Part shown: positions 43,598 to 46,681 of the stretch, one piece after another
How positions within the stretch are numbered: position 1 is the first letter of the stretch
How the letters are laid out: every line of letters begins with the position of its first letter
Assembly (NCBI RefSeq): GCF_016887565.1
Contig: NZ_CP069396.1
Span: forward strand, 1,267,001-1,331,000
Direction of reading: 5' to 3'
Source: Archangium violaceum
GTDB lineage: Bacteria > Myxococcota > Myxococcia > Myxococcales > Myxococcaceae
Length of the DNA: 64,000 nt
The notes under the pieces: generated by a model
What the model was told of the DNA's origin: nothing
The model's input: only the letters and a program-made list of their open reading frames with translations
The model's database searches: none
Made by a program: the position numbers and the translations under genes

Positions 43598-45028
43598 TCA
43601 GGCCGCCCGGCGCAGTGCCTCCAGCAGTGCGTCCAGGTCCCCGTCCGTGGTGAGCGGGTTGATGATCGTGGTGCGCAGCCACACGCGCCCACCGAGCGTC
43701 GTCTGCACCAGGTAGAAGTCCCCGCTCGTGACGAGCGACTCGCGCAGGCGCACCTGGAGCGCGTCCAGCTCCGAGGCCGGCACCCCCTGGGGCGTGTGCC
43801 GGAAGCAGACGATGTTGCAGTCCGGAGGCACCGCCAGCTCGAAGTCCCCGGCGGCCTGGAGGCGCTCGGCGAAGCGGCGCGACAGGTCGAAGGTACTGGT
43901 GACGGAGTCCGCGAAGAGCTTCGTGCCCAGCACGCTCAGGCTGGCGTACAGCTTGAGCGCCATCATCTCCTTGGTGCACTCCAGCGTGCGCAGCGCCACG
44001 TCGCTCCACGGGCGCGTGTCCTGGCCCGTGAAGAGATAGGAGGCCTCCTGCGCGAAGGCCTCGAAGGAGCGGTTGCCCTCGCGGAAGAGCACGGCGGTGA
44101 TGAGCGCCGGCATCATCATCAGCTTGTGCGCGTCCCACACCACCGAGTCCGCGCGCTCGATTCCCTTCACCCGGTGGCGGTACGTGGGGCTGAGCGCCGT
44201 CGAGGCACCATGCGCCCCGTCCACGTGGAACCACAGGCCGTGCTTCTCGCAGAAGTCGGCCACGGCCTCGAGCGGATCGAACGCGCCCGTGGCGGTGGAG
44301 CCGGCGCTGGCCACCACGGCGATGGGACGGCGGCCCGCGCGCTTCGCTGCGGCGAGCACCTCCTCCAGCGCCTCGGGGCGCAGCCGGTAGCGCGCGTCCA
44401 CCGGCACGGGCGTGACGCCCTCCGCACCCCAGCCCATCACCTTGGTGGCCCGCGAGACGCTGTAGTGCGTGGACTCGGGGACGAGCACCGTGAGGGGCGG
44501 CCCCGCCGTGGCGCCACCGTTCCACGCGTCGAAGCCCGCCTTCGCCTGGCGCGCGGCCAGCAGCGCGGTGAGGTTGCCGGCGGAGCCACCCGAGGTGAGC
44601 ACGCCTCGCGCGCCCTCCGGCATTCCGAGCACCCCGGCCATCCACCGCAGCACGTTGTGCTCCATGGCGGTGGAGACGGGCCCCATCTCGTACACGGCCA
44701 TGCCGTTGTTGAGCAGCGAGGAGGCGAAGTCGCACAGTGCCGACAGCGGCACCGGGGCCGACACCTGGTGGCCCACGTAGCGCGGGTGGTGCAGGTGGTG
44801 CGAGCCCTCGATGACCCGCGAGAGCAGGGCCGTGAGGTCGCCGGAGGGCTCCTCGGGGAAGTCCGCGGGGAAGCGCTCGACGTTGGTGGCGGGCGGGGCC
44901 CAGGGCAGCACCGGCCCCTCGCGGCGGAGGGTGCGCGCGAGGTGGTCGGCGAGCTGATCCACCAGCTGATGCCCGAGGCGGCGGAAGTGCTCGGGGTCGT
45001 AGGCGGCGGCGAGGCGGGAGGATGACAT
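43598..45028 (-). CDS. PLP-dependent group II amino acid decarboxylase
   Basis: A 476-residue enzyme of the aromatic-amino-acid/glutamate/diaminobutyrate decarboxylase fold. Features are GVLTSGGSAGNLTALLAARQ, PESTHYSVSRA (His stacking on PLP), FHVDGAHGASTAL (Asp pairing with the pyridine nitrogen) and the Schiff-base lysine in WDAHKLMMMP. It makes an amine from an amino acid; the substrate could be tyrosine, tryptophan or 2,4-diaminobutyrate and is not fixed by the sequence read here. Start 45028 (MSSSRLAAAYDPEHFRRLGH) is typical of the family. It is divergent from the selenoprotein gene. Confidence 0.93.
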   Translation of the reverse strand: MSSSRLAAAYDPEHFRRLGHQLVDQLADHLARTLRREGPVLPWAPPATNVERFPADFPEEPSGDLTALLSRVIEGSHHLHHPRYVGHQVSAPVPLSALCDFASSLLNNGMAVYEMGPVSTAMEHNVLRWMAGVLGMPEGARGVLTSGGSAGNLTALLAARQAKAGFDAWNGGATAGPPLTVLVPESTHYSVSRATKVMGWGAEGVTPVPVDARYRLRPEALEEVLAAAKRAGRRPIAVVASAGSTATGAFDPLEAVADFCEKHGLWFHVDGAHGASTALSPTYRHRVKGIERADSVVWDAHKLMMMPALITAVLFREGNRSFEAFAQEASYLFTGQDTRPWSDVALRTLECTKEMMALKLYASLSVLGTKLFADSVTSTFDLSRRFAERLQAAGDFELAVPPDCNIVCFRHTPQGVPASELDALQVRLRESLVTSGDFYLVQTTLGGRVWLRTTIINPLTTDGDLDALLEALRRAA

Positions 45029-45164
45029 GGGGCCTGCATGGCCCCGTGGCGTCCGGGCGTCAATGGATTCGTGGTCCATGGGACGAGGAGAGGGGTCTCC
45101 TGCTTGCACCCTGGTCGTCACGCGTGGTTTCAGTCCCTATCCACACCGTGAAAGGAGGCCCTCC

Positions 45165-45410
45165 ATGGCCGCCCGTATCACCATCACGTACTGCAATTCC
45201 TGAGGCTACAAGCCTCGGGCCGCCCGTGCGGCGGCCGTGCTGAAGAAGGAGCTGAACCTGGACGCGGAGTTGAAGCCCGGTCCCTCGGGCAGCTTCATCG
45301 TGGAAGTGGATGGCAGGCCCGTGGTGAAGAAGGAGTCGCTCGCCTTCCCCACCGAGCAGCAGATCGTCGAGGCCGTGTCCAAGGTGCTCGGCTCTCCGGG
45401 CAGCTCCTGA
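45165..45410 (+). CDS. Selenoprotein W-like (Rdx family) protein, in-frame UGA for selenocysteine
   Basis: Read through the TGA at 45201-45203, the frame gives 81 residues: MAARITITYCNS, Sec13, GYKPRAARAAAVLKKELNL and so on, ending VSKVLGSPGSS at TGA 45408-45410. The CxxU motif (CNSU) followed by GYKPRA and a thioredoxin-like beta-alpha-beta-beta core (GSFIVEVDGRPVVKKES) is that of the SelW/Rdx family. AAAGGAGG seven bases before the ATG is an excellent ribosome site, and codon use stays strongly coding on both sides of the UGA. A hairpin follows the UGA. The role is likely a small redox protein. A mutated CxxC homologue with an accidental stop is the alternative. A conventional gene finder would see only short fragments. 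Confidence 0.82.
45218..45236 (+). promoter_or_regulatory. Candidate bacterial SECIS hairpin
   Basis: GGCCGCC-CGTGC-GGCGGCC is a perfect seven-base-pair stem with a five-base loop whose apex starts 21 bases after the UGA. Bacterial SECIS elements lie in this distance range inside the coding region and have G in the first loop positions, as here. A smaller hairpin (GAGGC-TACAA-GCCTC) overlaps the UGA itself. Which one SelB would read is not known. Confidence 0.5.
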
Positions 45411-45505
45411 CCCCCGGCGTGCGGGCGGCCGGGGGCTCGCCACCCGGTGCCACGCTCCCCAGCCAGGACCCAGGGCCCCACCTTCGTGTCACGGGAGGTG
45501 TGGTC

Positions 45506-45814
45506 ATGGGTGCAGCCTGGATGGAGTCCCCTTTCGAGCGGCGCTCGATTCAGCACGCGATGAAGGTGCGGGATCAGGACGGGAAGGTGCTGGGGAAGGT
45601 GGCGTGCATCGGAGAGACGGTCCTGTTCGTGCGCCAGCGCTTCTCCCGCAGGCTCTGGGCGGTGCCCCTGTCCCATGTGGAGCGGGTGACGGGGCAGGGC
45701 GTGTACGTTTCGGGCCGGGAGCACGCCGCCGTGGAGCCGGTGGGAGACCGGCTGCGCACGGAGATCATCACGGCAGTCCATCCGTTGGCCGAGCCCCCGC
45801 GGACGCACGCATGA
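45506..45814 (+). CDS. Small PRC-barrel/DUF2171-like protein
   Basis: A 102-residue soluble protein. The core IQHAMKVRDQDGKVLGKVAC, then IGETVLFVRQRFSRRLWAVP, resembles PRC-barrel or DUF2171 proteins and the small protein at 34395-34631. GGGAGGTG precedes the ATG at 45506. It lies 95 bases after the selenoprotein gene and 42 bases before dapD, in the same direction; a shared transcript is possible. The function is unknown. Confidence 0.75.
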   Translation: MGAAWMESPFERRSIQHAMKVRDQDGKVLGKVACIGETVLFVRQRFSRRLWAVPLSHVERVTGQGVYVSGREHAAVEPVGDRLRTEIITAVHPLAEPPRTHA

Positions 45815-45856
45815 GGATGGTGCGCCGGGCGGGGTTTCGTGCTTGAAGGAGCGGTC

Positions 45857-46681
45857 ATGTCCTCCATCGAGAGTCTTTCCCAGAGGGTGTCCGCGGCCTT
45901 CGCGGACCGGGCGAAGCTGAAGGAAGCCGATTACGCCGCGGCGGTGCGCGAGACGCTGGCGCTGCTGGACGCGGGCGAGCTGCGGGTGGCCGAGAAGGGC
46001 CCCGAGGGCTGGAAGGTGAACGCCTGGGTGAAGGAGGCCATCCTTCTGTTCTTCGCCATCTCCGACATGAAGGTGATGGAGGTGGAGCCCTTCGAGTTCT
46101 TCGACAAGATTCCGTTGAAGAAGGGGCTGGAGGGGGCGGGCGTGCGCGTGGTGCCGCCGGGCGTGGTGCGCTATGGGGCCTTCGTGGAGCGCGGGGCGGT
46201 GGTGATGCCCGGCTATGTGAACATCGGCGCGCGCGTGGGCGCGGGGACGATGGTGGACACCTGGGCCACGGTGGGCAGTTGCGCGCAGGTGGGGCGTGAC
46301 GTGCACCTGTCGGGCGGCGTCGGACTGGGCGGGGTGCTCGAGCCACCCACCGCCTCGCCGGTCATCATCGAGGACCGCGCCTTCATCGGCAGCCGCTGCA
46401 TCGTGGTGGAGGGCGTGCTGGTGGAGGAGGAGGCGGTGCTGGGCGCCAACGTGGTGCTCACGGCCTCCACGCCCATCATCGACGTCTCCGGCCCCGAGGA
46501 GAAGGTCTACAAGGGCCGGGTGCCGGCGCGCAGCGTCGTCATTCCGGGCATGAAGGAGAAGCAGTTCCCCGCCGGCCGCTACATGGTGCCGTGCGCGCTC
46601 ATCATCGGGCAGCGCAAGGAGAGCACGGACAAGAAGACGAGCCTCAACGCGGCCCTGCGCGACTTCGCCGTGCCGGTATAG
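45857..46681 (+). CDS. dapD: 2,3,4,5-tetrahydropyridine-2,6-dicarboxylate N-succinyltransferase
   Basis: A 274-residue DapD. The N-terminal helical part (LKEADYAAAVRETLALLDAG) is followed by KVNAWVKEAILLFFAISDMK. The left-handed beta-helix has RYGAFVERGAVVMPGYVNIG, ARVGAGTMVDTWATVGSCAQ and GGVGLGGVLEPPTASPVII, all typical of DapD. It adds succinyl-CoA to tetrahydrodipicolinate in the succinylase branch to meso-diaminopimelate and lysine. A dapE-like gene lies 9 kb away at 55683. AAGGAG before ATG 45857 fixes the start. Confidence 0.95.
   Translation: MSSIESLSQRVSAAFADRAKLKEADYAAAVRETLALLDAGELRVAEKGPEGWKVNAWVKEAILLFFAISDMKVMEVEPFEFFDKIPLKKGLEGAGVRVVPPGVVRYGAFVERGAVVMPGYVNIGARVGAGTMVDTWATVGSCAQVGRDVHLSGGVGLGGVLEPPTASPVIIEDRAFIGSRCIVVEGVLVEEEAVLGANVVLTASTPIIDVSGPEEKVYKGRVPARSVVIPGMKEKQFPAGRYMVPCALIIGQRKESTDKKTSLNAALRDFAVPV

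Follow-up and report, generated by a model that had tools for sequence, protein, structure and literature searches.

SelW-like selenoproteins have been described from several groups of bacteria. The main text of PMC1794560 reports them for Geobacter sulfurreducens, Desulfotalea psychrophila, Alkaliphilus metalliredigenes, Desulfotomaculum reducens and Symbiobacterium, and that of PMC1088965 for marine bacteria in the Sargasso Sea set. The former, a paper from 2006, notes that Cys homologues of SelW-like proteins are very rare or absent among organisms that contain Sec. In bacteria, the SECIS element is a stem-loop just 3' of the UGA with a small, G-containing apical loop, whereas eukaryotic SECIS elements lie in the 3' UTR (main text of PMC1088965). 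The epsilonproteobacterial SelW (PMC4607533; model NF041051) belongs to the same family and has a Sec codon, and according to the main text its genes have likewise been missed by annotation.

For myxobacteria, the record is sparse. Anaeromyxobacter dehalogenans is credited with 11 selenoproteins, none of them listed as SelW-like in the main text of PMC1794560, where the genus name occurs once. The terms Myxo, Archangium and Corallococcus are absent from the main text of PMC1794560 and PMC1088965, and word-initial "Myxo" is absent from the main text of these two as well as of PMC4607533, PMC5029168, PMC9312934, PMC12013277, PMC5330540 and PMC5322559. Literature listings for selenoprotein or selenocysteine combined with myxobacteria, Myxococc or Myxococcus xanthus yielded nothing relevant; subscription journals and supplements fall outside their scope, so that a prior supplementary listing is possible. 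The initial annotation of the locus had called Sec use little described in this organism group. This holds for the myxobacterial literature found, but not for the wider group, as selenoproteins of Anaeromyxobacter and SelW-like selenoproteins of other deltaproteobacteria have been published (main text of PMC1794560).

We describe a SelW-like gene from Archangium violaceum, contained in a DNA stretch of 64,000 nucleotides that was analysed as a whole (the window). It shares with the bacterial SelW-like selenoproteins reported in those main texts the SelW family, Sec and a hairpin of the bacterial type immediately 3' of the UGA. It differs in the group of organisms, being found in Myxococcota (Archangium, Myxococcus, Corallococcus, Pyxidicoccus, Hyalangium). 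The family is thus a known one, from bacteria and animals, in a group for which no mention was found, and the new aspect is chiefly the fidelity with which the relatives keep the Sec form. The features are listed in Table 1.

Table 1. Features of the SelW-like locus, in coordinates of the window.
Feature	Coordinates	Strand	Basis
Shine-Dalgarno-like AAAGGAGG	45151..45158	+	Sequence reading
SelW-like (Rdx family) selenoprotein gene (predicted), 81 residues, Sec13	45165..45410	+	Sequence, profile and homologues
In-frame UGA, predicted to encode selenocysteine, in CxxU redox motif	45201..45203	+	UGA there in 97/98 matching genomes
First hairpin, including the UGA; less conserved	45201..45217	+	77.1% of cells paired
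SECIS-like hairpin, 7 bp, 5-nt loop CGUGC, G at loop position 2	45218..45236	+	96.5% of cells paired; third-position covariation

The start codon (ATG, 45165-45167) follows the Shine-Dalgarno-like motif at a distance of six bases. Codon 13 is an in-frame TGA, and a second TGA (45408-45410) is the terminal stop. When the first TGA is read as U, the product is MAARITITYCNSUGYKPRA...GSS, with the CxxU motif CNSU at residues 10-13 (context CNS-U-GYKPRA). The Pfam Rdx domain (PF10262) spans residues 4-72 and thus runs across the TGA (E 7.2e-13, 49 bits, cut-off 22.6), and the TIGR02174 model scores 47.4 bits (cut-off 34.2). The ATG, its upstream motif and a CxxU at an in-frame UGA in a frame running through 45410, all noted in the initial annotation, were thus seen again and are now backed by a domain match across the TGA. 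With a score above the domain cut-off and an N-terminal CxxU motif, the product is a member of the Rdx (SelT/SelW/SelH) family. It reaches 66.1 bits with NF041051 (SelTWH_Campy), below the curated cut-off of 88, and is not an equivalog of that epsilonproteobacterial protein. The SelW family profile matches eight distinct solved SelW-family-like sequences, among them Selenoprotein W (PDB 2npb). The mammalian protein is of the same family by this profile comparison, in which its match is weak (E 2.8e-7). A comparison of ten relatives gave a pN/pS of 0.38 upstream and 0.47 downstream of the UGA. For the two other forward frames of the downstream part, the values are 1.36 and 1.65, and for the antisense frames 1.02, 1.79 and 0.52. 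These values are moderate evidence for a coding frame 3' of the UGA. Mammalian selenoprotein W presumably carries the CxxU motif as well.

The UGA was followed through two sets of relatives. The first comprised 98 genomes, including that of the window, and 50 had a match; the best locus, read in each of the 50, was CxxU in 49 and CxxC in one (G064, L069). The second set came from a profile search of 195 Myxococcota genomes, in which 98 matched and 97 had no match. The match contains a TGA in all but one of these 98, and reading the best locus in every one of them gave 97 CxxU proteins and a single CxxC. The 97 are made up of the 49 from the first set and of 20 and 28 from two further readings. 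The comparison with CxxC and CxxU homologues that had been suggested for this gene thus came out heavily on the CxxU side, and the relatives, checked for a frameshifted or unrelated sequence after the UGA, keep homologous sequence instead. In the scan behind the last of these readings, which covered 38 loci and included several that had been read before, 37 were CxxU; the remaining one (L127), outside the strict pattern, belongs to a genome (G012) that is CxxU when read at L028. Among the 13 most distant loci (L191-L203), U is followed by N in 11 and by G and S in one each.

A DNA pattern that includes the TGA matched 57 stretches of named records, among them Archangium violaceum, A. lansinium, Myxococcus xanthus, Corallococcus, Pyxidicoccus and Hyalangium; the gene is present in the named M. 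xanthus strain AM003. All 57 have a Cys three codons 5' of the TGA and a homologous in-frame protein 3' of it, two of them ending at the stretch boundary; the pattern demands a TGA and is therefore silent on the frequency of Cys forms, and many of the stretches overlap the genome set. A protein pattern with a Cys codon, scanned against the genome contigs, returned 50 stretches without a confirmed relative, because the relatives' genes carry TGA, and no Cys form with the motif was confirmed. Judged from these genomes, an in-frame UGA is conserved at the Cys/Sec position, and the Sec form appears nearly invariant among the Myxococcota that have the gene, which is less expected than the family membership. 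Together with the Rdx and TIGR02174 matches, retention of the same TGA in 97 of 98 matching genomes confirms, at the level of sequence comparison, that the TGA-spanning gene is more than chance.

Some individual loci deserve mention. In G064, decoding of a UAA as Sec was considered and rejected: the locus reads as a CxxC protein and the TAA is its normal end. G025 (L064, G025:C44), a genome with selA, has a CxxU and a CxxC Rdx gene side by side, which possibly form a natural Sec/Cys pair for comparison. The SelW-like protein of G001 (L025), a relative from the same genus as the window, is the same as that of Archangium lansinium MIWBW (L170). The SelW-like protein of a record labelled Comamonas sp. 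KCTC 72670 (BNCN01000005.1, L180) shows no difference, in the part that was read, from the protein of a myxobacterial genome (G044, L032), and this record is probably mislabelled or mixed.

In the databases, the gene is represented by its downstream part. A protein search returned 24 relatives, all annotated as proteins of 45-63 amino acids that start at residue 22 or later, after the UGA; the active site is missing from every one of them. The source-labelled entries are named Rdx family, selenoprotein W-related or hypothetical. The search finds only entries that share short words with the query, and correctly annotated records may exist elsewhere. These annotations would fit a UGA that acts as a genuine stop or arose as a lesion in a pseudogene, with the downstream stretch being a remnant or a separate short ORF. 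We consider this extremely improbable. Both the UGA and the protein on its two sides are kept in nearly all matching genomes, the Rdx match begins before the UGA, and a lesion would not fall on the redox residue across so many lineages. Moreover, AAAGGAGG precedes the upstream ATG, while by eye codon 25, the start chosen most often in the annotations, has no Shine-Dalgarno-like motif within the 24 bases that precede it.

A bacterial selenoprotein gene calls for a Sec machinery in the same genome. The initial annotation had proposed a search for selA, selB, selD and tRNA-Sec and had named the absence of selB and tRNA-Sec as counter-evidence. All four have matches in the genome that carries the window (13.2 Mb, a single contig), so that this objection falls away: selA (575 bits), selB (328 bits; the GTPase domain with SelB-wing_2 and SelB-wing_3, the C-terminal winged helices), selD (379 bits) and a complete tRNA-Sec (73 bits, anticodon TCA). 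By sequence, two further genes are likely selenoprotein genes. SelD itself carries HCAGU (L018), and an FdhA-like gene (L215) carries ARIUHSS, which we take to be the FDH Sec motif; the pieces of this gene score below the TIGR01591 cut-off. With the SelW-like protein, this makes at least three likely selenoproteins in this genome. The machinery and the retention of the UGA with its downstream protein among relatives support the original proposal that the gene encodes a selenoprotein.

Across the first set of relatives, the gene tends to occur with the Sec system. When the profile matches in G072 and G096 are included, 51 of the 98 genomes have a CxxU gene. A selA above the family cut-off is present in 49 of these and in 33 of the 47 others (Fisher p 7e-4, a value that is indicative only, as the genomes are related). 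A tRNA-Sec was found in 46 of the 51 (E 1e-9, strict filters); at this setting, five CxxU genomes had no match, and two (G029, G049) had no selA match. Only G029 (87% complete, 900 contigs) lacks a match to both, which is probably an assembly gap. The CxxC genome G064 has neither a selA nor a tRNA-Sec match. Among the 82 genomes with selA, 33 had no match to the SelW-like gene in either homologue search, which means that this gene is not the only one for which the Sec system is retained.

The sequence taken by itself would be compatible with a UGA that is decoded by ordinary readthrough (e.g., as Trp) or passed by a ribosomal hop, rather than read as Sec. To this we give next to no credence. 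The UGA occupies the Sec/Cys position of the SelW family, the CxxU gene co-occurs with selA, and the one genome with Cys in place of the UGA is without detected selA and tRNA-Sec. A conserved, covarying hairpin 3' of the UGA also speaks for selenocysteine.

This hairpin has a perfect 7-bp stem (GGCCGCC at 45218-45224, GGCGGCC at 45230-45236) and the loop CGTGC. As reported at the outset, it begins 17 bases after the UGA, counted from the first UGA base (15 after the last). Four of its seven pairs follow automatically from Ala codons that lie opposite each other (GCN to GCN), so pairs between third codon positions are the real test of this stem. Pairing was analysed in an alignment of 47 loci (45 distinct), which left out the two most distant of the 49 CxxU loci (L068, L070) and the CxxC locus (L069). 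Over both helices, 23 cells are changed on both sides, as opposed to 7.9 in shuffles, and the covariation score is 0.189 (0.134 in shuffles); none of the 500 shuffles reached either value. Two further counts are not exceptional: 3 pairs are changed on both sides (2.8 in shuffles, reached by 409 of 500), and there are 12 further pair types (10.9 in shuffles, reached by 44 of 500). All these shuffles ignore relatedness. A larger set of 101 loci gave 65 distinct rows once duplicates, stretches of insufficient length and a single locus in which U is not followed by G had been removed. Pair 21-33 is CG, UA or UG in all 65 rows and pair 18-36 is standard in 61, and each of the two has three branches on which both sides changed. 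When the 136 third-position pairs are ranked by excess pairing, the top five contain three of the four third-to-third stem pairs (hypergeometric p 1e-4), or two of three for the second stem alone (p 0.003); the other stem pair in the top five is 6-12, from the first stem. Two non-stem pairs are also among the top five, namely 27-54, which ranks first, and 12-48.

Fold energy was tried as evidence for a SECIS and set aside as weak across the family. Compared with 300 synonymous-codon resamplings, the sequence in the window is only modestly low in energy (z -2.61, p 0.010), and across the family the energies hardly differ from those of such resamplings (mean z -0.52, 49 loci). The case for the hairpin is one of covariation and not of energy. 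Rfam, at gathering scores, has no match within the window. As judged from the sequence, the element has what characterizes a bacterial SECIS, a stem-loop just after the UGA and a small apical loop containing G, and is a candidate for it.

A Sec gene might also be served by the first hairpin, which includes the UGA, or by both hairpins together; this concerns only the step of recognition. The first stem folds as 7 bp in the window, and its third-position pair 6-12 covaries, but of the 45 distinct rows, 14 lack its pair 2-16, 25 its pair 3-15 and 18 its pair 7-11. The second helix, by contrast, is paired almost throughout. We regard this alternative as unlikely, and the UGA-including hairpin is probably not the recognised element.

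The stretch 45165-45410 is thus very probably a gene for a SelW-like selenoprotein, with the UGA read as Sec by way of the second hairpin. From the features computed here, namely the gene, the position of its UGA, the conserved protein downstream, the Sec genes and tRNA of the genome and the conserved, covarying hairpin, we infer Sec insertion, binding of this hairpin by SelB and a redox activity. During translation, SelB with Sec-tRNA-Sec would bind the hairpin and deliver selenocysteine at the UGA, and translation would end at the second TGA. The product would be a small Rdx (SelT/SelW/SelH) family oxidoreductase, presumably with a thioredoxin-like fold. Its active-site pair would be Cys10/Sec13, with the selenol acting in thiol/selenenylsulfide exchange.

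Myxobacteria are predatory and largely aerobic. With this gene, soil myxobacteria would join the users of SelW-like selenoproteins, and the database entries found miss the active site of the protein. The relatives provide a phylum-wide gene set in which to ask why Sec has been retained and Cys has not taken its place.

The neighbourhood of the gene varies among relatives. In the window, an opposite-strand gene for a PLP-dependent decarboxylase (43598-45025) and a gene for tetrahydrodipicolinate N-succinyltransferase (45839-46681) are neighbours, and the window has no match to a TauE-like gene. Between the SelW-like and the succinyltransferase genes lies an ORF (45419-45814, + strand) that has no Pfam match. 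A TauE-like gene is located directly upstream, on the same strand, in 15 of the 57 named loci (e.g., L183, L141, L158), with one further locus (L181) having too little upstream sequence. The single upstream copy that was checked, in L050, matches PF01925 (E 5.8e-35), and its stop codon overlaps the SelW start as ATGA. In L183, L164, L158 and L166, the aligned TauE-like frame reaches the SelW ATG. This neighbour suggests a link of the SelW-like protein to sulfur or selenium compounds and is, in some relatives, a first handle on the substrate of a bacterial SelW. YedE, another protein resembling sulfur transporters, has been proposed to function in selenium metabolism (PMC5322559); the terms TauE, TSUP and SelW are absent from the main text of that paper. 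It is tempting to speculate, though we find it somewhat doubtful, that the SelW-like protein of Myxococcota is an essentially Sec-only enzyme which in part of the group is translationally coupled with a TauE-family membrane transporter, and that its role is specific to sulfur or selenium compounds rather than that of a general antioxidant.

The tRNA-Sec gene of the genome is present as one complete and two partial copies (C1:5178448-5178574, 5182903-5183000 and 5204985-5205079; L071, L072, L001, L002). The partial copies are 99% identical over 98 bases and 86% identical over 127 bases. A second functional tRNA-Sec (59.5 bits) was considered and rejected: the shared 98-base repeat does not extend to the 5' acceptor strand, there are mismatches in the acceptor, another partial copy, the third, is found at a distance of 4.4 kb, and the second copy is adjoined by a gene with a Phage_integrase match. 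For these reasons, the two extra copies resemble attachment-site repeats of tandem islands in the tRNA-Sec gene. The selC gene of E. coli is likewise described as an attachment site for islands, as the tRNA-Sec gene appears to be here.
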